64,000 nucleotides of DNA from Styela clava (Eukaryota > Chordata > Ascidiacea > Stolidobranchia > Styelidae). Location: the NCBI RefSeq assembly GCF_964204865.1, contig NC_135255.1:11127135-11191134 (forward strand). The letters run 5' to 3'. Shown piece by piece: positions 14,681 to 61,616 of this stretch; position 1 is the first letter of the stretch, and each line of letters starts with the position of its first letter. The position numbers and the translations under genes are program-made. The notes beneath the pieces were generated by a model, which worked only from the letters and a program-made list of their open reading frames with translations, searched no databases and was not told where the DNA came from.

Positions 14681-17600
14681 TTATCGCAGAAAGTTATACA
14701 CAAGTATGTTCGGAGTTCCAAAATATTTTGTAGCAAATGCTCGACCATCAGGAGTAGGATCAGAGAAAGCAACCTGAAAATAATAAGCGTAAGAGTGTCA
14801 AATGCAGAAAACTACCTACTTAATATCAGATAGATAAATTGCGGCAGGGATTTTTCGTACAAGATTTAAGGATCTGTGTGTAGTTGTGCAATGCAATGTG
14901 CATCCATGTAAGATAAACTTTCGTCAGTCAAAATGGGAAAAATTTTAAATCGCAGAAGCCAGAAAACTTGGATTTTCACGAGTCTTTAGAGCAGGGGTCA
15001 CCAACGCGTTGCCCGCAGGCACCAAGTCGCCCGCAGGTCTGTTCCAAACTAAGATTAATAACAGCGCTTATAAGTAAGCTACATCAATAAAATTTTGTCC
15101 TGCTATTCTTGTGTAAATCACACTTATATGGGAATCGGGAATGGCACTATATTAATTATTGTAGCCATCAACCTGATTTTTATTTGATCTCAGTAATGTG
15201 ACGGGACAATTAACACTCTTGCAATTATGACATCACACTGATATAATTTACCACGACCCGCGCTTTTTCTTGTTCGTTGGTTTGTGGAGCAGCAATAATA
15301 TATATTTATTGATTCCAAAGAAAAATGGCTGAAAAACCCACCATTTTCACGATGAATGGGGGTGGGTATATTTTTACCACCATGAAAAGAGCCTGCGCGT
15401 GTCTCAATTTGTGGGGCGATTGTAGCGACGACAAAGCGAAAAGATATTTCACGGCTAGTCACGCAATCTACCGCACTAACTATCCACTGGTCAGCGCAGT
15501 ACGGGAAGAAAAACATCGCGACTCAAATCTTACAGCAATTCTATTTTACGAGACCATTGTTCAACATTTTTGCCATAAACTCAGGATAGGATGGGATTTA
15601 CATATTTATCCCGGGGCCGATAAGACGGCTTAACCATATGGCGAACCAAGGCCTCTCGTCCGGTTACCATTTCATGTCGGGTATGGGATTAGTTAGTTAT
15701 TTGTTTTCGTAAGCATGGACTTGATGGCGAAGGAAGCCATCCCAACGACGGCAAGGGGTCCAGCAATCCTCTCACACATTACTATCCTCGCATAGGATTC
15801 TTACCTGCAAACCTAACGCTTAGCACACTAACGATGGCCACACAGCCGCGACTTTTAAGAAGTATACATTGAATTGGTAGCCCGCGGCTTAATCTGTACC
15901 CAGAAAGTAGTCCTCGGCCTCGAAAAGGTTGGTGACCCCTGCTTTAGAGTCTAAAAAGCGTTTCAAGTCACAAAAAACTGCTATGTATGATATGGAGAAA
16001 TACCTTTTTTACATTTCGAAAAGCCAGGGAGAGGGAATTGTCCTGACAAGGAGGATGGGTGTATCAGACTCAACTAAAATACCACTATGATTCTATACAG
16101 CAGTTCTTGGCATTTTGGTGCTTGCCCATAACCTTTCTCAGAGATAACTCCTCTTCTTTCTCTAAGTGAGTGCCTTGTTCCGAGCAACTTCTTTTAAAAA
16201 AGAAACAAACCTGAGATTTATCCAAACAAGACCCAAGTACAAATGACGAGCGGACTGCATCAAGCAGACGAGTTGCAATTTGCTTCCTACGCATTGGACC
16301 ATATGTCCATATTCTCGATACACCACATACAGCAGGTGTAAGTCTGTGATCAGTGAAACACAACACATTTTTGGCAGATGACTCTTCTGTACTTTTTCCA
16401 GGAATTAATCGATGCGCACCTGATATTTTTTCTGCGATCAAGCATCCTGCAATCTGTAAGATATTTTTTATGAGTCTTATGTAATACTTACGTACAGCTT
16501 TATCTTTGAATAACAATAAATCTATTCAAATTCACACAAATAAACAATATAACCGCTTGATTTGAATATGGTTGGACTCCTCTTCATCACACCAATCATT
16601 CCCCTGCGTGGATTCGCAGGTTCGAATCCTGTGAAGATGATTATGTGTGAGAGGATTGCTGAATTCCTCATCGACACAGGTTTGTTCATGTAACCACTGG
16701 TTGTGACCTCAACCATCAAGTTCATGCATCTGAAGCAAAAATCTGGCAACTAACCCCATACTCGACAGGGACTGGTGACTGGACGAGAAGTCGTGGTTCA
16801 CCACAAGATGAAACCATCTCATCATCTTTCCCTCGGGATAAATATGTAAATCCTATCATATCTGATACAGACTGGTGATAGGGCATGGGCCCAACCTATT
16901 ACAAGTTGTCTTGTCGGATTTCCTCTCCTCTGGGATAAATGCAAAATCCTTTACTATTTGGATTTCCAAGTTGTTTAATAATGAGCTAGAACAGTCTTGA
17001 TGTAATATAGTTTCTAACCTTTTCAGTATCAGAAATAAAGAAATAGGCAATTCTTGATGACACGAGTCCAGTCTTTACAGTCTTGAAACCCAAATCAATG
17101 TCAACGATGGTCAGAATGTCAGCAACCTATTTGAAATATTCAAAATTGAAATTTATTCAAGTTGTTTAACAATTATATACAAGCAAAAGTCAAGAAATTT
17201 TTTCTAAAAAAACGAGAAAGCACAGTATTTGTTGATAAATGCATTATATCTAAATATTATGTCATGATAAGATTCCTATATTGAACACATATTCTCATAC
17301 AGGGATGTTGATTACACATAATAATTTGGCTTTGACAGCATATGCATAGGTTGTTTCAAAGTTTGGAAGCAAGTGAGAAATAGTAATTTTACCTTTTTAA
17401 CAGCGTATTTTGGATCATTTGGTGTAACTTTAATAATTCTTCCATCCATAAAACTAGACACAATTCTTTCATTTTTCCAACCTAAAAATCTGCAAAAAAC
17501 GACAATATGGACAACATAAAGTGTTGATTCATTTATTTCCACAGATTAGACAATGAAAGATGGTTTGTGCTACATTCTTGATAACTCAAACAAATACAGG

Positions 17601-20686: not shown

Positions 20687-23600
20687 TATAAGCTTAAATA
20701 TACCTAAATAATTAGAGAAAGAGTTTATTCAATTCGTCAAACAAACAACATACAAACATATAACATTCAATACATGCAATCATATATGAATAATAAATAG
20801 ATATGATGGTTAGGTGTATGACTGGGAGGCAACGATACGACCTTTTGGGGTCATCAAGAGTCTGTTGCCCCCCATACAATTATATTCTTAGTAATAAAAT
20901 GATTCAACAGGTTCAGTGGTAAATTCTTCAATACCTCTCATTTATTCACTATATACAAGAAATTCCTAATTTGGAAGCATTAAAAAATACTGGTTTGTCG
21001 TAAGATATTCCATGCACCATTTATCCAGCTGCCAATTTGACATGTATTGCATATCTACTGCATAAAACTATGCAAAATATAGAAATGGGTTAGCAAGGAT
21101 ACCAATTATTTGGACAATTTGTCTATTAATAATGAAAGAAACATGGACATGGATTTTGAATATGTAAAGATGGGATAAATTTTATTATAACATACGCAAA
21201 ATCAGTACAAAAAAATCAGGAGCACATGTGGGGCTGACTAAACAAATCATAATATATTTTCACAATACAATTTATCAATTCAGACCAGTTAAGCAAATTT
21301 TGCGATAATTTGTGACTTTGTACAAATGTATTAAGGGTTGAGCATAGGCTCAATGAAGAATTATTGGTTCGAGGGTTGATGGAAAAAAGCTAATTAGTTG
21401 GCATGGCAACTTTTAAAGCTTTGACATAATGTAGAAAAATATAGGATGTAACATTCTTTAACAATGTACCTATACATTTTGTTATTTATTTATTTGGACC
21501 ACTTTAATTATGAACATTATGAAATTCCTTGAGACGGTTCTATAGAACCTGTGCGAGCCGGCTGAATCCAACCACTGGATGTAGTGTTTAGATCTCACTA
21601 CACATTAATTGTTGATTGGTTGGTCGGATAGGTTGCGTCTGAACCCGAGCCGTCCATCTGTCAATAGACTCCGACCGTAGATAATAGTCAGTTGAAACAC
21701 CTTATGAGTTTTCATTGCAATTCCGACAATATAAACAGAATTCAATGTATACACTCTTAGGTTGATTAAGGCCTATAGGATAGGGTTTATCCCGGTGGAG
21801 AGAAAAGCTGATAAGATGACTTAAACATACAGCTACAGCCACCTGTCCGAGTTACCATTCCATGTCGGATATGGGATTAGCTAGTTATTTGTTTCCGAAG
21901 CATGGACACGATGGTGGAGGAAGCCGTAACCGACCAGCGGTTACGTGAACCAAACAGAGTAATCAGAGGGGCGGTGACAAGCGTATTTCTAACGCTTAGC
22001 ACGATGAGCCGCACCGACGCCAATAACGTTAGGAACATAGCAGAATATATAAGTTTCTACAGAGCAATTAAAACATGATCAAGAAACAGATTTTTACATT
22101 AACAATGAAAGAATAACAGGTTATTCCGGTTTCTTAGCAATTTTCGGTTTTCCTATAATCATACATTATTAAAAGTGTTTTCTTAAAACTTAGTACTTGC
22201 AATTAAATTGTTATTGTCAAATCGTAACGATGAGAATGTGTATTTGGTCACGTCCCAACTCAAATTATGCGAATTGAAAAATTGTTCCCAATTAGATAAT
22301 TAGTCTTTACAGAGATGTTTCGAATTTACGTTATTATAATTTTACTGGAAATAAAATTTATCTTTACATTGAATGGTACCCAAAGGCTATTAAAACTTGA
22401 AATTGGATTTCACGAAACTTAAATTACAATTGCTGAATTGTGGGAATAATTAATGCTGTTTTTCATTAGTTTCTCACGAATTGGGTCAATTTGGTGTAGG
22501 TAGTTTTGTAGTTGCATAACAACTAATTGGCTACAATGAGACTTGAGTATCCATTATTAGACTAATAATATCATTGCATTTGCCTTGCCGTTATAGTAAG
22601 GTCGATTATCACGTTATAATAATCGTATTGTTATGTCATAATGAAATTGTAAATCAAGACGTCCACCCTCCACCACGTCTGCACGTTGGCTTGTGCGCTT
22701 ATTTTTAATTACAGAGTTAGGCCAGTAGGCTGACAGGAAAGTGAGTTTTGGCTATCTGCTTACACAGTAACAAATTCTATTAAATCATCGATGCAAAGTC
22801 CATCAAACTAATCTAGTAATTTGCATCTTCATGGCTCTGTGAGCACGAGTTTTCTTCTTTGACTGAAATGAAAAAAAAATGAGCGACCGACCCTCGTTTC
22901 AATTATGTCTTTAAACAGGCACAATGTCTGAATGTCAACATCACATTAACATTTGCAGAACAATTTGTTTAAAGCTCACTTTTTTTACAAGTGTGCCGCA
23001 AAACCTCTTTATATGCTTAGTGCGCCGCGAGCAAAAAAGTTTGAGAACCACTGCACTAGACAGTACCGCATGCGTCAACGAAAACTAAGCAAGTTTTCGC
23101 ACCTACCGTACCTGTGTTAGCCCAGTACATTTCTACATTTGGTAACGGAGCAATATTTTGTATGGCGTCTCATCATTCTGTCCTTGTTATCCTATCCTTG
23201 TATAAACAGCGCACATCGCAGATGCTGAAATGTTAATTCCGCCAGCCAAAACCAAAACTCCCGCCTCGCGGAGCTGAAGCCAACCATGACGAAATTAGCG
23301 AAATCGAATTCGATTTTCCTTGTGTTCAAATTTCCTTGTTAAAAAATTTAATTCTGGATATGCGATGTCCTTGTAAATTGTCCCGTTCTCCTCATATATC
23401 TATTTCAATTTTAGAATTTTTGATTCTTTCTGTTCTTTTTTTGGCAGGTATGATCACTAGATGTTATGCTTGCTAAGTTGATTATTCAGCATTTTTTGTT
23501 GAATTGCTGTTTATTGGTGTATTACTGTACTTGTTATGTTCCAAGAAATTGATAGGTCAGAAATACAGTTAAAATAAGATCTCAAAAAGACCTAAAATCC

Positions 23601-24283: not shown

Positions 24284-26261
24284 TTGGGTAAATTATCGGC
24301 TATGAAGATAATATGTGCGGGACTCCAGAAAACTGGAACGAAGTCATTAGCTGAAGCTTTACGAATACTCGGATATAACGTACATGATGTCTTTGAGCAA
24401 TTTTACTACGAAAAAGAATTATGGAACAAGGTATTTAACAAAACCAAATGTGTATCACTCTGTAGTGTCCTGAACATCTTTTGACTATTGTCATTGATTC
24501 AGGTTCTCCGTAATACAGCTGTCATTGCTGATTATCAAAGAATTCTCGAGGATGTAGATGCTGTAATGGACTTCCCTGCAGTAGCTGTATGGGAGAAAAT
24601 TATGGAAGCATTTCCCGAAGCCAAAGTAAGCTATTTACATTACGTCATAAGCACACATTACTACGTCGGTACTTTATAGTTTTATACATGTCGGTATTTA
24701 TGCAATATAAATATGCATTTTATTATAGACTGGAGAAGCATAGTATCAATGTTGGGTCTTTAGGAACGACGTGTTCAATTATCTATGTCGATTGTATAGG
24801 CCTATATATATTGCGTTATCAATTTGCATTCTCTTCAAGCCACATTGCTTTTTTTTTAGATAATTTTAACAATCCGATCCAACGAAGATGATTGGTACAC
24901 AAGCATTAAAAACCACATCGAAGTCATTAACCAATATATTCCGTGAGTACGTCTCTAAAAATAAGTTCTGATATGAAATCTGATATCACATTATCGATAG
25001 AGCTTTGTTGCCATACTTGCAGCAGGTCAAACTCGGATTGACACCGATTGCCACATGCCTCATTGATAGAACACGGAAACGCTTTCTCTCCTCAGGTCCT
25101 ATCCATATAATGAAGCAAGAGTCATATTTTACTCACCCACAAAATCTGAACCACATAATGAACACAATTAATCAAATTTAAAGGTATACTAAAGACAATG
25201 ATTGTCAATTTAGGCTACTTCGAAAAATTCTTTATATTGCAATTCGCATCAAATATATACAACTTGCGCTGATTATTTGGTTTCTGCGAGACTAACTACT
25301 TATCCTTCTTCTATGTTTTTGTGCCGGTGGATCCGTATGCATATATTGCGAGGATGCTGTAGCAAGAGTAGAGATAACAATTCTAAGTGATTCAAGAGTC
25401 TTGCTGCACACTAACACAAATATATTTCTGTAACGTTTCGTCTGACCAAGGTCAGACTTCTTCAGACATACATAGTTCAACTACCACGAACCACGATGTA
25501 TGTCTGAAGAAGTCTGGCCTTGGTCAGACGAAACGTTACAGAAATATATTTGTGTTAGTGTGCAGCAAGACTCTTGAATCACTTAGAAATATATACAATC
25601 TATAAATTCTTTATATACCACAAATTTTATTCTGTTATTTCAGGCAAAGTGAATTATTACAACAACTTCTTCATGTGATATTGGGTCCCACGCGACAAGA
25701 ATTTATTCGATATGAATCCGGATTTATACCTGCTTGCATTGGAATGACAAGGATGTGTGGAACACCTAAAGAGCCGATTCTCAGGTAAACATAGGAAAAT
25801 TGGTAAAACTTATAGATAACACGTACGACGTCATTCAGATTTGCAAGTTGAAACTTCGTCACGAGATTAGCAATTTGGCACTCTATATTTAAATTTAAAA
25901 GTTTTTTGGCAGTGAAATAACTTGAGAATTTAGATTTTTATCTTTGTTGTTCAACAGATCTCGTTATCGACAGCATAATTGCTATGTCAAGTCAGCTTGC
26001 GAGAAAACGAAACTGTTGATATATAACGTAAAAGATGGTTGGGAACCTCTTTGCCATTTCCTTAACAAGAAAATACCAGATAGACCTTTTCCAAAGAGGA
26101 ACATAAAAGGCGGAATGGTTCATGAAGTTGCCCAACAGAAATGGGAACACGATTGTGGTTACGCCAAAGCTGTAAACAGAGAAGCGTTGATCAGAATTGG
26201 ATTTTTGATAAGTGTGTTGGTTTCAATATTATCTGTCATCTTGTACTTTTTCACAATATAA
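24284..26261 (+). CDS. Sulfotransferase-like P-loop protein with C-terminal membrane anchor
   Basis: Five exons join in phase: 24284-24430, 24503-24625, 24860-24942, 25644-25784 and 25958-26261, giving about 265 residues. KIICAGLQKTGTKSLAEAL near the N terminus is the PAPS 5'-phosphosulphate-binding loop. Further family blocks are DVDAVMDFPAVAVWEKI, the IILTIRSNEDDWYTSI strand-helix, and NVKDGWEPLCHFLNKKIPDR followed by PFPKRN. The last ~20 residues (IGFLISVLVSILSVILYFFT) form a membrane helix, suggesting a tail-anchored protein with its catalytic domain in the cytosol. Family knowledge: this is the group often named sulfotransferase family 4 or 'NAD-dependent epimerase-like' in invertebrates; substrates are mostly unknown. 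Translation could also begin at the ATG at 24302. AATAAA lies at 26309-26314. Confidence 0.87.
25381..25588. repeat. Near-perfect 93 bp inverted repeat with hammerhead-like cores
   Basis: Arms 25381-25473 and 25496-25588 differ at about one position, with a 22 bp spacer. Each arm, read outward, has CTGAAGA, then an 8 bp hairpin (GTCTGACC/GGTCAGAC), then GAAAC. This is the core order of a hammerhead ribozyme, as found in Penelope-like retroelements. I could not find the cleavage triplet and closing helices. It lies in intron 3 of the sulfotransferase-like gene. Confidence 0.8.
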
Positions 26262-29001: not shown

Positions 29002-32000
29002 TCATAATTTGCGATAAACGTAAATAATTGCCATCAGCTTATTTCCAACTGAAAATTCCACTGCACAATGCTGCATCAGTTTTTCTTCGATTTTTTCGAT
29101 TTCTGCTTCTTTAACAAGTTCGTCCAATGTCTTTTCCATTCGATATTTATATTCTTTTTCGTGATCTGTATGTCGGATGTTCCAAAGAGCATATCCGCCT
29201 AGTTTGAGTGCGCGAACTAAAGGCTGTTGACATTAAAAATGAAATTCATTTTTAACATGTTTTTTTAAAACAGTCATTGATACTGCATGTTATCATTCAC
29301 AAGACGGTGGAGGAAATTAAACTTCACCTGACAGCAACTTTGTGCGGGTTTTCATTTTATAGATCTGTGGTTAAAAAAATTTGATTCTCACTTCAATTCG
29401 AGGCGGCAATACTGAGATCTCAGAATTTGCACTACAAAAACTTGGTGGTTACTATTAAACATTCAACTAGGAACTATCGAATATGAACTCTGACGCTAGT
29501 ATACTCAATAAACTGTAGGCTCCACAGCACTGGCTTACCAATCATAGTGACATACATATGGATCATTTAAAACATTTCTTATTGTTTATACCAATAGTAT
29601 CATAGTTATGCATACCTAAACGATATAAAGACGGTTTTGATTTTTAAATCAAACGCTTCCATGAGCTCAGACTTAGATCTAGTCCAATATTAGGATCAAT
29701 ACCGTGACACATTCAGGTTCCATGTGACCACTCATCATTGTTCCCGCACAAATTACTGCATCGTAGAGGCCATACTCCAGAGGAATTGGTTTGTCAGGGA
29801 AAACGCCAATATTATAATGTCTCCTGTTGAAAGCGTAAATTATTAAGGAACTAATTAAGGATGGTTTGAAGTGTTGTTTTCCTAGGTAAATTAGCATTCG
29901 ATGGATTTCACCCGCTGACCGACCCCAGAAAAATACCCCTGTCCCCTATACATAAGTATTATGGTATTTAACACGCTTCTTTAAAATTATTACTTTGTCG
30001 GAAAATATTCAATTTTTAATTATTGGATATGAAAGAAGTCTCAAAAAACTGCTACTTTTATTCAATTATTTCCGTGTTCTGTTGTGACCAATATTTCAAA
30101 TTTTGCTGTTCTTATTTAATTTATGGAACACTATTATATGACGCCTTCATATGACATCCGGTACAATTATTTTAATATTTGGCTGCAATTTTGCTGAAAG
30201 TGATATAATTCTCACCTATATATGAATTTAGATCTAGCAACGTCCAACATAGCCCTATTTATATCCAATGCGTCTATGATTCCTTTGAATCCTTGCTTTT
30301 TCAAGACCTCTCCACATTTTCCGGTTCCTAAATCGAATGATATCAATGCTGTGTGATGGTTTGTTCTACATTTACACATTCTACCAAATTAGTGACATAT
30401 CGTCACGCTAATAACCGAATTGCGTAAGTCATTTTTGACGAATTTGAGTTTTCTCGTTAAAACCCATTTATATGTTGTTGCGCACCAGCATGTTGAATTA
30501 GTTTTTAATAAACGGATAATAAAACGCTTTACTGGGAGAACAAAACGCTTTGCCTAAGTCATAGATGTGACATACGCAAATTTTGTTTCTAAAGCGATGC
30601 CATCATACGATATTAGGACGTCATACCCATTACATCGCGGTTGTCTTCAGCAGACATCGCCGTAGAAGCCTGCCGTTAGGTTGTGAGCCGTTATCCGATG
30701 TTGGTGTGTCTTGTCATTATATAGCGATTAAAATGAGTGCTTCACTTCTGAGAAACCTTAATGCGAATGAAGTTATTATGAGGATAGAAAATGAAGATTC
30801 AGGTGGGTCTGTAGGTCTATATTTAATTTTTGCAAAGTTTCGTTAATCTACGTACCAACTAAAAATGAGTTTAGTAAAGAACGTACCAAGTATTTTATTC
30901 TTATAGATGACATGCTTGAAACCCAAAGTGTGTCAGATTCAGACCCAGACTTTGTTTTTATTCAAGAGTTTGATGAGGATGAAGAAAATTGGCAAGGTGT
31001 TAAATCTAAAAAATTATCCAACTACGCTCAACGCAGTTCCACAGTGGTTAGTCCTGTTTTGTTTTCAATTTATTTAATATCATCATTGCCGATAACGCTA
31101 CACTTTAAATCATGTTTTCATTACCTGTTTTAGACGTTGGGTAAAAGGAAACGCGTAAAACGGGCGCGCCCCTTTGGATGGAAAAATAATATTTGCAAAA
31201 GGAATCGTCTAGCTGGATTAAATTACAAAAGCCGAAAAGGAAAGCAAAATATAGCAAGGCAATGTGCGAGTTTGACAGAAGATGATAGACAGTGGGTTTT
31301 CAAAAATTTTCGGAAAATGGAATCGTGGTCTGAAAGAAGATCATATGTCAGGGCTTCAGTATCGAAGGTAAACGATATTTAGAAACACTGATTTTATGTC
31401 ACGCTTTCCGCATCTCATTCAATTAAATTTGTACTGTTTCGTAGGTTACCACCAAGCAAAGGAAAATTGCTGAAAATATGTCAAGAAGAAAGTCATCTTT
31501 TGAATACCATTTACAATTACAAAATGGAAAATGCATTCTGGTGTGCAAAAAACTCTTTTCGGCTACAATTGGCATTAGCCAACGAACTTTGCTCTCGTGG
31601 CTGGAAGGTCCCGCACCATTCATAAAGTTTTTGGACCCGCATCGTCCAAGAAAAGGTATGTAGCAAAAAGAGCAATAAATGCACAATGTAATATTCATTT
31701 AATATTCATTGAATAATGACTGAAACATTCATTTTCTATTTTTTTAAGGTAAAACTGCTTTTATCCAAAGGCAAGATATGGATTTCATTATAAAATGGTT
31801 ACATGAACTACCTACATTGTCATCTCACTATTGCCGTTCTAGAGGTACCTATAAGAATAAAAAGTATCTATATCCCGGAACGACTGTTTCAAATCTTCAT
31901 CGCTTATATTCTGAAGAGGCAACAAATTCTGAAAGACGGGTTATTAGCATCGCAAAGTTCAGGGACATATTTAACAAAGAAAATTTTTCATCATTTCGGC

Positions 32001-35000
32001 CTAGAAAGCCCCAATGTGATATTTGTGTGGGATTTTCGCATGGAAATATTGACGACGGGGAGTATAGAGCCCACGTAATATCAAAAGATGTGACGAGAGC
32101 TGAAAAAAATGCCGACAAAGAATCAGCTGACGTGAGCAGATCCGTTTGGACTATGGACTTACAGGCAGTCCTGATTCTTCCCAAAACTCACGCCAGTTCG
32201 ATGTATTATAAAACCAAACTTCAGATGCATAATTTTACTCTTTATAATTTGCAAACAAAAGAAGGATTCTGCTATCCACGGGAAGAGCACGAAGGCGATT
32301 TAAGTAGTGAAGTGTTTGCCTCGCTACAGTTCTCTCATTTCAACCAATATGTTACAGATCATCCTTCAATAAAAGAACTAGTGATATGGAGTGATGGTTG
32401 TGGGTATCAAAACCGTAATGTAATCGTCGCAAATGCATATTTAGATTTGGCACGGAAACATAAAATTAAATCATGTAAAACGTAATCATGCAGTGTGCAA
32501 GACTGGATTTTAACAACAACATCAGGATTTTAAGAAAATGACTGGGAAATACTTTGCCAGTATACGCCCTGGAAATACAGCAGGTGATCCAAAGGTGCAT
32601 CATCTCCGAGCAATACAGTATACTTCCACAATTCACTTCAAAACTACGTTTATGGATGAGTGGGAATTACTTCCACGCAGAATCCATAAACCTGAAAAAC
32701 CATTCCAATGGATAGATTTGTTTCCAGGTCAACTTAAGATAAGCTGTAGAAAATTTTGTGATTTACAAGAAATGAAGAGAGTGCTGCCAACATACGCACA
32801 TTGCTTTTATGACAAAATTCCACACCATTTATAATAAATAACTACCCTATTTTCAAAGAAGAAATGCAAAGTTACGTTAGTTTTCGCTGAGTAGTTAATT
32901 TTACAAAAGTTTTTTTTTCTTCTGTTTTTTCAATGAATTCTCCATTGTTTGTTGAATGGCATTGTATGGTTGTGTTGACAAGGTTAAAGTTATGATCGAA
33001 TTGTATTTTGAATGTCGTACACACCTGCAATTCAGCGCTCTTTTTTATTTTTTTATACTTTATAATCAATATCTATGGAAAGTCTCAATTTTGGTGGGTG
33101 TTTAGAGCGCATTAAATTGTTGAAATATATATTTCAAAATTAAAAAAAATAATGTTATTAAAACAGATAAGCTGTTTTGGGGTTTGGACATTGTAGAGAC
33201 TGTAAATTACATTCGTTTTTTGAATGTTCGCTTTCGAGGAATGATAGTTCCAACAAAGTTGCGAAATTGCGTATGTCACCAAGTCATAGGCGCATTTCTG
33301 CGTAAGTCACAGTGCGCCATTATGACGTCACATGCCTGCGTCATACAAATTAATTTAAATCCGGCTACCGTTAAAATAATGAACCATGGGAAATTATTTA
33401 CTCTACATGGCAAAACAATACCAAGAGGAAGTTTTTTACGTTTTTCTCGAAACTGCTAAAAATGACTTACGCAATTCGGTTATTAGCGTGGCGATATGTC
33501 AATATACATTGAATTGTTAGAATATCTACAGCACAGTAAAAGTATATTGACTTATTTATACTACTGGGATATCATTTGACCGGGCATTCATTTATATTGC
33601 GACTAATACCCGTTCAGAATAAACGTAAGGGATATTAATATCAACATTTATGTACTTCAGAAATAAGGTTGTTTTAGAAGTTATAGTAACTCTGGCTACA
33701 TAGCCCATATGAAAAGATATAGAAAAGGGATGTCGAAGTAATGAGATCAGCCCCATTGAAAAACAAAATATATATATAATGTGTTTATCAACTCAGAGAT
33801 ATATTCCACGATTGGTATGAAGTCCACAAAAACAACGAGTCACAGCGATTTGGGAAAAGATATTTCTATTATGAACGTACCGGAATTAAGAGTCATTCAT
33901 ATATTTTTAAAGATATGATCACTCCCTCTTTGTAATTGAGCTATAAAGTCAATGCCATAATATTTTGTGTTATTCAATAAATATGTCAAAATAGACAACT
34001 CGACATTACCTGCTCCAATATCCAAAATTTGACTAGTCGGCGAGTTATTGACGTATTTCATCATTTTCCCGACCAGATTATCAGGAGTACAATATCCCGT
34101 CGTAATAACATCGTCGTCATACACCTTTGACCATTCTGTGTAAACCTGATTGGAATGAACGAAGCGAGTTGAATCCAAGTATCATTCATGGCTTGCCCCC
34201 AGACATTCAGATATTATTGCACGATAAGTGCATGGTCTACCCCAGTGGTCGGCAACCACCGGGCCGCGGCTCATCGCCAGTCCGCGGAAAGGTTACTGCC
34301 GGTCCGCAGAGAGGTGACACAAAAACGAACAAGGCCGTAATAAAACCTTTACAATCTAATCACAAACCCTACGACTAAAAAACATTGATTTTTAAAATTT
34401 AAAAATGTCTGGGAAACGGAGCGACGAGGGTCGTGCATTCCCAAGTGCTTGAACGGAAAAATAGTTTTCTCTATTGCGCATTCCAAAACCGGTTTGCTCG
34501 ATATGCCCAGTCAGCAGTCAGCATCGCAGTTGTTAAGGGTTTCAATGTTAAACTCGTTACAAAACGAGTCGTCGAAAATTCGACCCCGAGGCCCGGGACT
34601 GCACGATTTATTTATTATACCCGTATTTGAATAATTTTTATGGTATATGAAAAGGAATATAAATGAAATAAATAAATAATTAAAATATTGGATTTACGAA
34701 GATAGGATTAACTTTGGTTTATGAAAATCCATTATAACACAATGTGAATATGAAGATCAATTTCAATTACTACTGAAAGGGATTTTTCAAAGTACAAGAA
34801 GGGGGTTTGTAATCAAATATATAAATAACTAATATCATTTATTAACAAAGGATGAAAAATAGAACTTTGAAACCAATCGGGGTCTGTAGAGATCTAAGTT
34901 CTAGTGTCTACAGAGCGTCAAAATTTCCCAAAAGTATATAGAATCAAATTCATCAATAGCGACAACAACAATCGCTAACTGCAAATTTCAAAGCAATTGG

Positions 35001-44132: not shown

Positions 44133-44300
44133 AGGTCTATGATGGCCCATCGTTGTCACGCGTAAGAATTAAAAAAAAAAAATTAAAAAGCGAAAATAAA
44201 AAAATTGTTGTGAAAAAACATAAAAATAATTGAAAATTAAAATCAAAAGAAAAAAAAATTAAAAAAAAATAAATAAAAAATTGGATAAAAATAAAATAAA

Positions 44301-45437
44301 AAGGTTGACAACGATGGTCCGCCTCGTGGCCCATCGTTGTCACGCGTTTTTATTTTTAGAAAATTTGATGCTGCTTGGGACCAACGTTGTCAGGCTTAAT
44401 CCTACATGCACAAATGTGTTTCCTGGGTTTCTAACTCACTACTGATTTTCATGAGCAATATCCAATAAATTCAAAACGAAAATGTTCTATAAATTCTCCA
44501 TGCTACAAGTTCCACCACAAGCAATATATTTATAATAATGATAGGAGAATATAGAATTGAATACGAAAATTTGTTTTTACGTGTAAAAAGTAATTGAATT
44601 GGAAAATGCTGCTTAACTGCTCAGTTGTCTGGACACTCGTGCGATGCCGGTACGGTACCGTCTGACCGTACCCATGCAATCACTCATGAAAGAATGGGAG
44701 ATACGGATAGTCTCGTAGAATATAGACTACTGAAACACTCTCTGCGCCTGCCCCATACCGTACAGCCGTAACGTACCGATCCAGACAAATGATGAATCGC
44801 CCGTGCTCAACCATTTATTTCAATCTAAACCTCGACTCACTATATTCTACTAGGATCGAGGTATGGATTGAAATAAATGGTTGAGCACGGGCGATTTATC
44901 ATTTGTCTGGATCGGTACGTTACGGCTGTACGGTATGAGGCAGGCGCAGAGAGTGTTTCAGTAGTCTATATTCTACGAGACTATCCGTATCTCCCATTCC
45001 TTCATGAGTGATTGCATGGCTACCGGGACGGTCAGACGCAAAGCGACTATAACCGACTATCGGTATTTGGTAAGACGGTACGGTACCGGCATCGCGAGTG
45101 TCCAGACAACTGAGTAGTTAAGCAGCATTCTCCAATTAAATTACCTTCTACACGTAAAAACAAATTTTCCGAATTTTCGTATTCAATTCTATATTCTCTT
45201 ATCATTATTATAAATATATTACTTCTTGTTGAACTTGTAGCATTGAGAATTTATAGAACATTTTCATATTGAATATTGCTCAAGAAAATCAGTAGTGAGT
45301 TGGAAACCCGGGGAACACATTTGTGCGCGTAGGATTATGCCTGACAACGTTGGTCCCAAGCAGAAGCAAATTTTCTAAAAATAAAAACGCGTGACAACGA
45401 TGGGCCACGAGGCGGACCATCGTTGTCAACCTTTTTA
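44301..45437. mobile_element. Foldback element, two ~550 bp arms
   Basis: Left arm 44301-44835 and right arm 44856-45437 are inverted copies, with a 20 bp centre. Shared words include gacaacgatggtccgcctcg at the tips, gcccgtgctcaaccatttat near the centre and ctgaaacactctctgcgcct in the middle. The right arm is slightly longer because of an extra block near 45040-45080. The tip sequence also occurs at both ends of the surrounding 44133-47023 element. Confidence 0.88.
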
Positions 45438-45954
45438 TTGGACACGTAGTGGACATAACGATCGTTTCAATATTATGTTGTTGTTGTTCTTGTTCTTGTT
45501 CTTTGACACGTTTTTAAAAAGTCGCTTTTCTCTTTGATTACTGGACTAATTGCTTTGAAATTTTCAGTGGTTGAAGATGAAATTTTTCTCCAGAAGGCTA
45601 TTACTTTTATTTATTTCAAATATTTCTGTTAGCTCTGTAAGATTTGTTTTTGTTTGCTATGACGTCACTAAACGTTCATTGGATATCGGACGCCATTTTG
45701 TGTCCAACGGACCATCTTGCAATTTCAATTCACGCTGTCACAAGACAGGAGTTCTGGTACCGTAACACAGCGCGGTGACACTGAACTAACTCGTAGCTGT
45801 CAAAAGCTTGAAAATCCATACAAATATGAGAAATAAAAAGATGAAACTTGGCAGGTGGGTAGAGTTGTGTTTCTTTTAACCATATTTGAAAGTTTCGCGT
45901 TTCTACATTTGAAGGAGGGGGAATAGGGGGTGTGCATTTCCGATACGTCGATAA

Positions 45955-46765
45955 TATCTTTGTCAACCAATTTGCGGCCACCGTGTTTTCGTCTGTTTGA
46001 TTGCTGTGATGTGGTGCTTTGTTTATAATTTAACGAGTTTTGTTCGAAATAACCGTGTTCTTGAAATATATGACGGTCAGAAATGCAATTAGAAGCCCAA
46101 TGTTTTCACGCTGTCACAAGACCAACAATTGTCAACCAATTTGCGACCAATTTGTGTTTTGTCTGTTTGATTGCTGTATGGCTGCGTATGCGATAGTCTC
46201 GACGCAGCATAAACGATGATCAAGGCTTGAAATCCGTGGTCGCACACTGGTCGTTAGGTCGCAAATACGTCTTTCGAGTGCCGTACTTTGGGGATTTGTA
46301 TAGTTTCAACCCTTTGTCGTAGAAAGTTAATACGAGGTTTAGCGTGTAGAATAAATGCCGCCAATGCACCCACGGTGAAAAAATTAACGGGTTAGATATA
46401 TTGGTTTTTGTTTTATAGCGGTTTGAATGCAATTGTCCGCAGACTGGCTACACCACCCTAGGCCTGGTGAGTTGTCCGTGTAGTCGAATTGTCCATCAGC
46501 CCTAAACGGCTATGACAGTCACTGTACCAAAAATTGTACCCCGATTCGGCTGGTGTTAAGTTGACGCATGTTATTTAGTAACGTTTTTATGTGAAATGTT
46601 TGACTGTGGTTCGGTACCTGATCCGATAATACGGTACATAATTGACTCATATCACGAGATATTTCAACTGATGTTTCAATTGTCACAGGACCTAAAATAT
46701 CTATGACAGTCCCTGTACCGTCACGGTACCCCGATACAGGTACTGGTAAGTCACCGCCGGTATGT
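45955..46765 (+). repeat. Diverged direct duplications
   Basis: gtcaaccaatttgcgg/accac...gtctgtttgattgctg occurs at 45961-46005 and 46128-46173. A second pair, ctatgacagtcactgtacc... with ccccgat...ggt, occurs at about 46507-46565 and 46698-46765. Function unknown. Confidence 0.6.
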
Positions 46766-47023
46766 TAGTCGCTGGTCACCGCATATGATTTTTGGGGAAT
46801 TGTTCTGCGTGTCCATATATTTGAGCATTGCTCTCTTGTTTTCTTTTTATTAAATTTTTTTTTTTTTTTTAATTTTTTTTTTCCATTTTTTTCCGTTTTT
46901 TTTTTAATTTTAATTTTTTTATTTTTTTTTCAATTATTTTTATGTTTTTTCACAACTATTTTTTTATTTTCGGTTTTTTACTTTCAATTTTACGCGTGAC
47001 CACGATGGGCCACCATATAGGTC

Positions 47024-57894: not shown

Positions 57895-58225
57895 GATTTA
57901 TTTACATATTGATCCCGGGGGAGAGGAAAGCCGATAAGACGGCTTATCCATATGGCGAACCACGGCCTCTCGTCCGGTTACCATTCCAGGTCGGGTATGG
58001 GATTAGTTATATTGTTTGTTTTCGGAAGCATGGACTTGGTGGTGGAGGAAGCCGTAACCGACCAGCGGTTACGTGAACCACCCAACGACGGCGAGGAGTC
58101 CAGCAATCTTCTCGCACATAACCATCCCTGCATGGGATTCGAACCTGCGAACCCACGCAGAGTATTTAGAGGTGCGGTGGCGAGCGTATCCCTAAGGCTT
58201 AGCCCGTTGAGCCGCGCCGCAATCT
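57895..58225 (-). repeat. tRNA-derived SINE, best-preserved copy
   Basis: On the minus strand it starts with a tRNA-like region: a box A-like ggctcaacggg (58203-58213) and a perfect RNA polymerase III box B, ggttcgaatcc (58135-58145). A unique body of about 240 bp follows, ending in gggataaat...cctaat. Related copies lie at 13553, 15588, 16553 and 21770. No intact tRNA cloverleaf can be formed, so this is a SINE and not a tRNA gene. Confidence 0.85.
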
Positions 58226-59495: not shown

Positions 59496-61616
59496 ATGAG
59501 TGTTGGTCCACTCGCATTGGAACTTATTATAGTATTTTGTCTCGCAGTATTTCTCTTGCATCATTATGGAAATATTACAAAGCAACATCCATTGGTTACA
59601 TTCGTGACATTAACAGCGTGGTATTTCAGCTTGATCATTGTTTTTATTCTACCATTGGATGTATCATCAACATTTTATCGACAATGTCAAAACATGTCCG
59701 AAGAAAATGAAGTAGAAGTTATTGAAAATAAAACAATCAAAGGATCAAATTACACTCAAAATGCTACTTCTAATGGTACTGATGACGATACAGTAAAAGA
59801 TGTTAGTGATAAGTACTGTGAAATGCCATGGAGTTATGTACCGTCATACACACTGCCAATAATGTGGAGAATCGTTTATTGGACTGCGCAATGTCTTACT
59901 TGGGTAATCTTACCTTTCATGCAATCATATTCATGGTCAGGACAATTTTCTACAGCAGGAAAAATCAAACATGCATTGATAAAAAATGCTGTTTATTATG
60001 GAACATACTTGCTGATTTTCATTGTCTTATTAATTTATGTCGCAACAAGACGGGATATCACTTTAAATTTTTCTCAGCTCAAAGTGATTGGCATTACTGC
60101 ATCCAATACGTGGGGTCTATTTTTGCTTGTGCTTCTTCTTGGTTACGGCCTCGTTGAAGTTCCAAGAACTGTATGGCGCGCTGCAAATCCTGTATTGATG
60201 ATGTCATACGTGCATTTCAAGCTTGCAAAACTAAGCACAGAAAAGCAAGAAGCTTCTGAAACAATGGAAGACATTCTAGAGGATGTGAAAAGAAACTCGG
60301 AAGCTATTCGATACAACCATCCTTTACGAAAATATGTAAACACAATCATTGCTAAATGCCCTGATGAATTTCAGGATAAGATTAGTCAGGGAATGGATGA
60401 TTATGTTGAATACGAAGATCAGAGACATGGCCAGGAAAATGTTACGGAAAAATCACTTGTCCGATTGCATACTAGAGTTATTGATGCTGCTCAGATGAAA
60501 AAGCGTACTGTCATTCAATGGAAAATATTAATGGATAAAGCAATACATTTAGACACAGTTGTGAAGAATATAAGAAATGGTGATGGTCTATGGGTAGATA
60601 GCCCAGTTATTGATAAACGAAAACTACCATTTTTCTGTACACCTACTCTAAAATGGTATTGGGAATGCAAAATCAGACCCATTCTCCTGAAAATATCAGC
60701 ATTCTGTTTAATGATTTTATCTCTTATGGTGGTTTGGTCTGAATGCACATTTTTCAATGCTAAACCTGTGTTATCGCTTTTTGCGATCTTCATCAATCTT
60801 GCTAAAACAAGTTATAGTTATTTCTACATTGAACTTGCTTGTTTCGCAACAATATCTTATCTTTGCATTTGTGCATATTACACTATATTTCGCATGAAAA
60901 TCTTCAACATTTATTATATTGCGGGCCATCACCAAACGAATGAACCAAGCTTAATGTTTGTCGGAATAATGCTATGTCGTCTCACACCACCAATGTGTTT
61001 GAATTTTCTTGGTCTTATACATTTGGACACTCATATATCCAGTTTCACGAATATTGAAACATCCTATACACAGATCATGGGTCATCTCGATGTGATCCCA
61101 ATTATTTCAAATGGATTCAACATATACTTTCCTATGCTGGTCGTTCTCCTTTGCATCGTAACATACTTCAGTTTAGGACACAGACTTCTGGCTTTTATAG
61201 GTTATGAACAATTTATAGATGGCAATGTCAAAGGTGAATTCACAGCAGATTTTGTAGAGGAAGGAAAGCAACTTGTTAACAGAGAGTTACGACGTCAAGA
61301 AAGAGAAATAAAGAGTTTGAATCGAATACAAATGCATGGTACTACAAGCGACATATCAACACGACAATGGCAAGGAAGAAGCATGCGAGAAGTTGAAGAT
61401 AAACATTTGCAGTCAATGAGAACAAACGACAAGGTAGAACTTTTGAGTGATACTGAACCTTTGGATTACAGCTCAGTTAGGGGTGAACAATCTGCAAATA
61501 CTAGTGATAGCTTTTCAGAGAGAGACAGTGGTAGCAGATGGGCCTCATCCAGAAATTGGTCAACGCAACGAGTAACTGCGAAGAGACCTCCGAAAAATAT
61601 TTTTGATGATGTGTAG
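59496..61616 (+). CDS. LMBRD2: LMBR1 domain-containing protein 2 (LMBRD2), single coding exon
   Basis: One open frame of 706 residues matches LMBRD2 over its whole length. The N terminus MSVGPLALELIIVFCLAVFL is the first membrane helix, followed by FSLIIVFILPLDVSSTFY. A glycosylatable loop (several N-x-T/S) comes next. About nine membrane helices follow, with blocks RIVYWTAQCLTWVILPFMQS, NTWGLFLLVLLLGYGLVEVP, VVWSECTFF, AGHHQTNEPSLMF and CRLTPPMCLNFLGLIH. A charged helix (about residues 235-385) splits the membrane part. The cytosolic tail is charged and ends LSDTEPLDYSS...NIFDDV, as in vertebrate LMBRD2 (near 695 residues). Family knowledge: it is a polytopic membrane protein reported near GPCR signalling, with biochemical role uncertain. 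Vertebrate genes have many introns; this coding region has none. AATAAA lies at 62625-62630. Confidence 0.97.
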   Translation: MSVGPLALELIIVFCLAVFLLHHYGNITKQHPLVTFVTLTAWYFSLIIVFILPLDVSSTFYRQCQNMSEENEVEVIENKTIKGSNYTQNATSNGTDDDTVKDVSDKYCEMPWSYVPSYTLPIMWRIVYWTAQCLTWVILPFMQSYSWSGQFSTAGKIKHALIKNAVYYGTYLLIFIVLLIYVATRRDITLNFSQLKVIGITASNTWGLFLLVLLLGYGLVEVPRTVWRAANPVLMMSYVHFKLAKLSTEKQEASETMEDILEDVKRNSEAIRYNHPLRKYVNTIIAKCPDEFQDKISQGMDDYVEYEDQRHGQENVTEKSLVRLHTRVIDAAQMKKRTVIQWKILMDKAIHLDTVVKNIRNGDGLWVDSPVIDKRKLPFFCTPTLKWYWECKIRPILLKISAFCLMILSLMVVWSECTFFNAKPVLSLFAIFINLAKTSYSYFYIELACFATISYLCICAYYTIFRMKIFNIYYIAGHHQTNEPSLMFVGIMLCRLTPPMCLNFLGLIHLDTHISSFTNIETSYTQIMGHLDVIPIISNGFNIYFPMLVVLLCIVTYFSLGHRLLAFIGYEQFIDGNVKGEFTADFVEEGKQLVNRELRRQEREIKSLNRIQMHGTTSDISTRQWQGRSMREVEDKHLQSMRTNDKVELLSDTEPLDYSSVRGEQSANTSDSFSERDSGSRWASSRNWSTQRVTAKRPPKNIFDDV

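Follow-up and report, generated by a model that had tools for sequence, protein, structure and literature searches.

A non-autonomous transposon in a predicted intron of Styela clava, with a transposase of the DUF7869 group and a probable place in Sola2

Sola transposases are DDD enzymes, and Tc1/mariner elements make a TA duplication. DUF7869 (PF25273) is listed in Pfam as a domain of unknown function. Superfamilies in Repbase are defined by PSI-BLAST convergence (E < 0.005; PMC4455052), and a TTAA duplication is given for Kolobok and piggyBac in the corresponding part of PMC9587614. For Sola2-type elements, the parts of PMC3627910 that treat slime moulds describe AWWT 4-bp duplications in Dictyostelium fasciculatum and ATAT, AAAT and ATTT duplications in Polysphondylium pallidum, and note that a length of 4 bp is in keeping with Sola2. 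Sola2 has also been counted in bivalves (in an excerpt of PMC10294476). Here we analysed a stretch of 64,000 nucleotides (nt) of the ascidian Styela clava (contig NC_135255.1, positions 11,127,135 to 11,191,134; hereafter the window), which contains a transposon with a spliced transposase gene. We consider it likely that this element is a non-autonomous 3,093-bp cut-and-paste copy whose transposase falls in the DUF7869 group, most likely in the Sola2 division of the Sola superfamily. Its family is new, but animal transposons of this kind are already known.

The own assembly of the species (376.6 Mb, 379 contigs) was searched, and further copies with the same ends were found; copy numbers are lower bounds. 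Among the matches listed, we examined seven gene-bearing copies (L009-L015) and 32 short ones (L016-L047), together with 30 further loci (L048-L077) found by a pattern search that was biased in favour of ATTT/AATT ends. Where both ends of a copy were found, CGTCACGCTAATAACCG was shared inwards with at most three mismatches; the adjoining four bases on the outer side varied. The same 4-mer was present on both sides in 35 of 46 distinct insertions, window copy included (ATAT 28, ATTT 3, AAAT 3 and AATT 1), and in 29 of 32 insertions, window copy counted, when the loci of the biased search were omitted. Flanking 4-mers related only by inversion were found in none of the 46. Six asymmetric duplications were repeated directly, one in the unbiased set (L018) and five in the biased set (L049, L051, L058, L063 and L076). 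The four flanking bases are thus a target-site duplication and not part of the inverted repeat, since otherwise a left ATTT would face a right AAAT. In this tally L020, L022 and L029 (short derivatives, C6), which have identical flanks and look like duplications of one insertion rather than three insertions, were counted once; L048 and L050 have nearly identical flanks and are not independent.

The longest exact inverted match between the two ends of the window element was 33 nt, compared with 20 nt or less in 200 dinucleotide shuffles of 29900-34000. This result and the same-ended copies elsewhere confirmed the transposon with matching inverted ends that had been proposed from the sequence alone. 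An inverted-repeat search gave 47-nt arms (30390-30436 and 33458-33504) with 96% complementarity. These apparent arms are too long, because the ATAT duplication and a chance palindrome flank the ends; the palindrome, TGAC/GTCA outside the ATAT copies, is host target sequence and not part of the element. As other insertions show direct 4-bp repeats, the window element was placed at 30401-33493, between the ATAT copies. The sequence-only reading had described repeats of about 45 bp with one mismatch at 30394-33501: the single mismatch was retained, the repeats were shortened to 36 bp and the ends were moved 7-8 bases inwards. The duplication length, to be defined from full copies, was 4 bp, mostly ATAT. 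The motif TTGCGTAWGTCA, with up to one mismatch, was found at six sites, all in the outer parts of the element, whereas 500 shuffles of the element contained 0.026 on average; seven such sites occur in the window as a whole.

The gene inside the element was predicted from the sequence to be split into five exons, whose borders are GT-AG and whose phases agree, and to encode 463 amino acids (aa) to the first stop. Its longest open frame, in the last exon, was 245 aa, whereas 300 shuffles gave a maximum of 228 and a median of 101. This prediction agrees with the five phase-consistent exons described earlier, and the basic block, the Cys pair (QCDIC) and the blocks VWTMDLQAV and IWSDGCGYQN noticed with them are all present in the predicted protein.

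We compared this protein and its sister copies with the DUF7869 proteins of the same genome. The frame of L010 matched PF25273 at model positions 59-162 of 192 (E 1.2e-5, 25.4 bits). A DUF7869 scan of the genome gave 12 matches, all over the cut-off, and a tblastn search with the L010 frame reached all 12 of these loci at 30-34% identity (E 3.3e-17 to 9.0e-5). Exon 5 of the window copy aligned with the 774-aa frame of L082, whose DUF7869 score of 37.2 bits is over the cut-off, at 28% identity over 229 aa (E 5e-18). In an alignment with three DUF7869 families, the blocks D1, SSxYY, NFT, DxCxxQNxN and the C-terminal P...FY were common to all. The block GH(S/T)QxExDxxHSxIE is found in the aligned DUF7869 families and is absent from the window copy, and the E or D of its QxExD are the candidates for the third acidic position. 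This block, D1 and DxCxxQNxN are shared by sister copies of the window family with the three families, whose proteins score over the PF25273 cut-off. Homology thus shows that the window family is of the DUF7869 group, though just under the formal score; the near-cut-off match of L010 and the alignment of exon 5 with L082 support the DUF7869-type protein suggested earlier. Fish- and arthropod-type fragments served as leads only, and this conclusion is not based on them.

The window copy has lost part of the transposase. The gap before the C-terminal block had been judged too short for the expected middle segment, and comparison with L009 and L010 confirmed this (45 nt against 164 nt). The deleted stretch encodes GHTQMEVDSMHSMIEKK, which is present in L010 and likely carries the third acidic residue that full copies were expected to define. 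L010 has a single 281-aa open frame, which passes through ...ANTYLDLARKHKIKITQKFLTTGHTQMEVDSMHSMIEKKVV...HQDFKKM... and continues into the C-terminal block. In the window copy this block changes phase, because 119 nt net were lost, a number not divisible by three. Without the stretch that likely holds the third acidic residue, and with its frame shifted, the window copy is therefore non-autonomous. The stretch is kept, small changes aside, by all seven other gene-bearing copies; as none of them shares the deletion, the loss may have taken place at this site once the element had inserted. Of the earlier description as a recent internal-deletion derivative, the internal deletion thus stands and the recent origin is half shown. 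The features of the element are summarized in Table 1.

Table 1 Features of the transposon and of the intron that holds it (window positions).
Feature	Position	Strand	Remark
Transposon proper	30401-33493		3,093 bp; ends fixed from other copies
Left target-site duplication ATAT	30397..30400	.	Boundary set by comparison with other copies
Left terminal inverted repeat	30401..30436	+	36 bp; one mismatch to right repeat
TTGCGTAWGTCA motif	30420..30431	+	Inside left inverted repeat
Subterminal TTGCGTAWGTCA-like motif	30550..30561	+	1 mismatch
Subterminal TTGCGTAWGTCA motif	30568..30579	-	
Transposase exon 1	30733..30802	+	Predicted; from first ATG
Transposase exon 2	30907..31046	+	Predicted; acidic
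Transposase exon 3	31134..31367	+	Predicted; basic block
Transposase exon 4	31445..31655	+	Predicted
Transposase exon 5	31749..32485	+	Predicted; to stop after deletion
First Asp candidate in exon 5	32156-32158		Alignment with three DUF7869 families
Second Asp candidate in exon 5	32393-32395		Same alignment; 78 residues between the two
Internal deletion site	32471..32515	+	45 nt here; L009 and L010 have 164 nt (net loss 119 nt)
Transposase C-terminal block	32514..32834	+	106 aa, now out of frame
Subterminal TTGCGTAWGTCA motif	33267..33278	+	
Subterminal TTGCGTAWGTCA-like motif	33298..33309	+	1 mismatch
Right terminal inverted repeat	33458..33493	-	36 bp
TTGCGTAWGTCA motif	33463..33474	-	Inside right inverted repeat
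Right target-site duplication ATAT	33494..33497	.	From other copies' flanks
Host intron, SAM (S-adenosylmethionine)-methyltransferase gene	30328..34009	-	Predicted; 3,682 nt; transposon in opposite orientation

Several results weigh against these assignments. The L010 score is 0.6 bits short of the curated cut-off of 26 bits, and that of L014, 16.7 bits, is far under it. Pfam profile searches gave no DUF7869 match for the window protein, and copies of its family are absent from the 12 matches of the genome scan. A single-sequence structure model of exon 5 was too poor for use (mean predicted local distance difference test score, pLDDT, 34.6). The flanking 4-mers were unequal in 11 of the 46 pairs, and of the only two long copies that are complete, L010 has unequal flanks (ATAT/AATG). 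With regard to activity, in none of the seven other gene-bearing copies does one frame stay open all the way from where exon 5 begins to the C-terminus. Much of the DUF7869-matching stretch of the sister copies is deleted in the window copy. Among the 11 unequal pairs, eight have ATAT on one side and eight came from the search for non-ATAT ends. With no such frame in any of the seven copies, the family may be dormant. Tblastn of the L010 frame in the same genome also reached relatives that are about 50% identical and have stop-free frames up to 663 aa, among them those at C14:20189929, C4:11921052 and C8:23138568.

The mechanism of the element is very likely that of a cut-and-paste DDD/E transposon. 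The 36-bp ends and the subterminal TTGCGTAWGTCA sites would be bound by an intact copy of the enzyme, and excision would be performed by an acidic D-D-D/E active site, presumably in an RNase-H-type fold. Insertion would take place at A-N-N-T targets, mostly ATAT, where a 4-bp stagger would become the duplication. The window copy would be mobile only with the enzyme of another, helper copy.

Although no superfamily could be named from the sequence alone, a probable one can now be given. The three acidic blocks of the window family would fit the DDD triad of Sola enzymes. The length of the duplication and its A-W-W-T sequence, seen in 35 of the 46 insertions, agree with the AT-rich AWWT-type 4-bp duplications of the Sola2 cases printed in those parts of PMC3627910. 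The terminal repeats differ, being 36 bp here and 12-13 and 21 bp in the slime-mould Sola2 elements of the same source. We conclude that the window family probably belongs to Sola2, an assignment based on comparison of duplications and acidic blocks. The same agreements argue against a superfamily formed by the DUF7869 transposons alone, with only the 4-bp AT-rich duplication in common with Sola2. We think such a superfamily unlikely, and give a similarly small chance to an undescribed animal cut-and-paste superfamily apart from Sola2, recognized by CG ends, TAWGTC at repeat position 25 and A-N-N-T 4-bp duplications. A separate superfamily would be in line with the database results for the window protein, which had no Pfam match over the cut-off (weak helix-turn-helix matches only, E 0.057 and 0.24), no NCBIfam match and a single chance-level match among PDB sequences (E 0.59). 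It would also be in line with the literature search, in which none of the papers covered named DUF7869. No paper among them combined QNRN with transposase. Outside the own genome, no relatives of exon 5 were found in phage, plasmid or viral contig collections, and none of the C-terminal block in viral contigs. A DNA pattern search and alignment scans of the viral and genome contigs also gave no relatives; the sequence used for confirmation in the scans was a fragment, which makes them a weak test of the window protein.

The window copy taken singly, with TA flanking its outer repeat, made a TA duplication plausible, as in a Tc1/mariner- or Mirage-like element. Other copies speak against a TA duplication, since the four bases that adjoin CGTCACGC on the outside differ from copy to copy and are repeated directly, and no mariner-type Pfam match was obtained, so we regard a TA-duplicating element as highly improbable. 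A TTAA duplication, the feature of Kolobok and piggyBac, was also considered and rejected, the flanks of the 46 insertions being 4-mers such as ATAT. We see hardly any chance that the predicted spliced gene, despite its five phase-consistent exons, is a domesticated host gene between chance repeats: the deletion breaks its frame, near-identical copies with the same ends lie elsewhere, and short derivatives lack the gene.

The probable Sola2 family of the window was then set beside other DUF7869 elements of the genome. A 3.8-kb DUF7869 element at L090, L091 and L092 has the ends CGCCGGATGAGAACAG... and the duplications ATAT, ATTT (direct, asymmetric) and ATAT, respectively. L095 has the ends CGCTGCCCTAGAACAAG... 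with AACT on both sides. Both of these sister families, the two with readable ends among three (the third comprises L093, L094 and L096), start with CG and have 4-bp duplications, and the 4-bp duplication is therefore not peculiar to the family of the window. At repeat position 25, counted on the printed ends, all three families have TAAGTCA (window family and L090-L092) or TATGTCC (L095). The other DUF7869 loci (L080-L082, L085 and L078/L079/L086) contain the same conserved blocks as the window family, with the protein identity to L010 given above. Their transposase exon is long and apparently unspliced, with open frames up to 891 aa, in contrast to the five predicted exons of the window family. 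Because four DUF7869 loci of two families, as well as the window family, are bounded by inverted ends that match and are flanked by 4-bp duplications, DUF7869 is tied to DNA transposition, and the proteins of such loci could be relabelled as transposases in annotation. Two frames adjoin DUF7869 elements on the minus strand: one of 167 aa at L082, starting at base 2 of the reverse complement, resembles by eye a retrotransposon integrase region, and one of 194 aa at L084, starting at base 2790 of the reverse complement, looks by eye like a psq-type helix-turn-helix protein of a pogo-type transposon.

Within the window family, both ends were found in L009 and L010, one end in four of the gene-bearing copies and none in L014. 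The identities of L009-L015 to the window element over aligned positions were 97.3, 96.6, 92.9, 94.2, 81.7, 76.7 and 88.7%, respectively, the lower values, above all that of L014, being depressed by forced alignment of flanking DNA in the fetched stretches; in the genome search, pieces of L014 were 90-94% identical to the element. The 62 loci L016-L077 yielded 43 distinct short derivatives, 721-862 bp long, and these diverged by 1.1-14.2% (mean 3.6%) from their own majority sequence. Because this majority is only 82% identical to the window element at the right end and 71% at the left end, the short derivatives appear to be a related deletion-derived family and not direct offspring of the window copy.

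As an insertion, the window copy is unremarkable, being a decayed element in an intron. When the predicted host intron is spliced out, ...TSQILDIGAG joins TGKCGEVLKKQGF... (TGKCGEVLKK...) in frame, and the host protein is probably unchanged by the insertion. Pfam gave eight methyltransferase matches for the predicted host gene, of which two exceed the cut-off. An LMBR1-family gene was found at 59496-61613 (Pfam, E 1.3e-184).

Other repeats are present in the window. An interspersed family at 15596-15813, 21786-21952 and 57900-58153, and inverted at 16604-16851, is 74-82% alike. Near these repeats, 16580-16636 and 58128-58184 contain a GGTTCGAATCC-like tRNA B-box sequence, which suggests that the family is a tRNA-derived short interspersed nuclear element; neither ARAGORN nor Rfam at gathering scores gave any match there. 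A nested palindrome at 44138-47017 has A/T-rich outer arms, and its part 44295-45439 is 83% identical to its own reverse complement over 1.2 kb. It resembles a foldback element or nested miniature inverted-repeat transposable elements and lacks open frames of at least 130 aa. A short foldback at 25381-25588 has 96-nt arms that are 98% complementary, with 16 nt between them.

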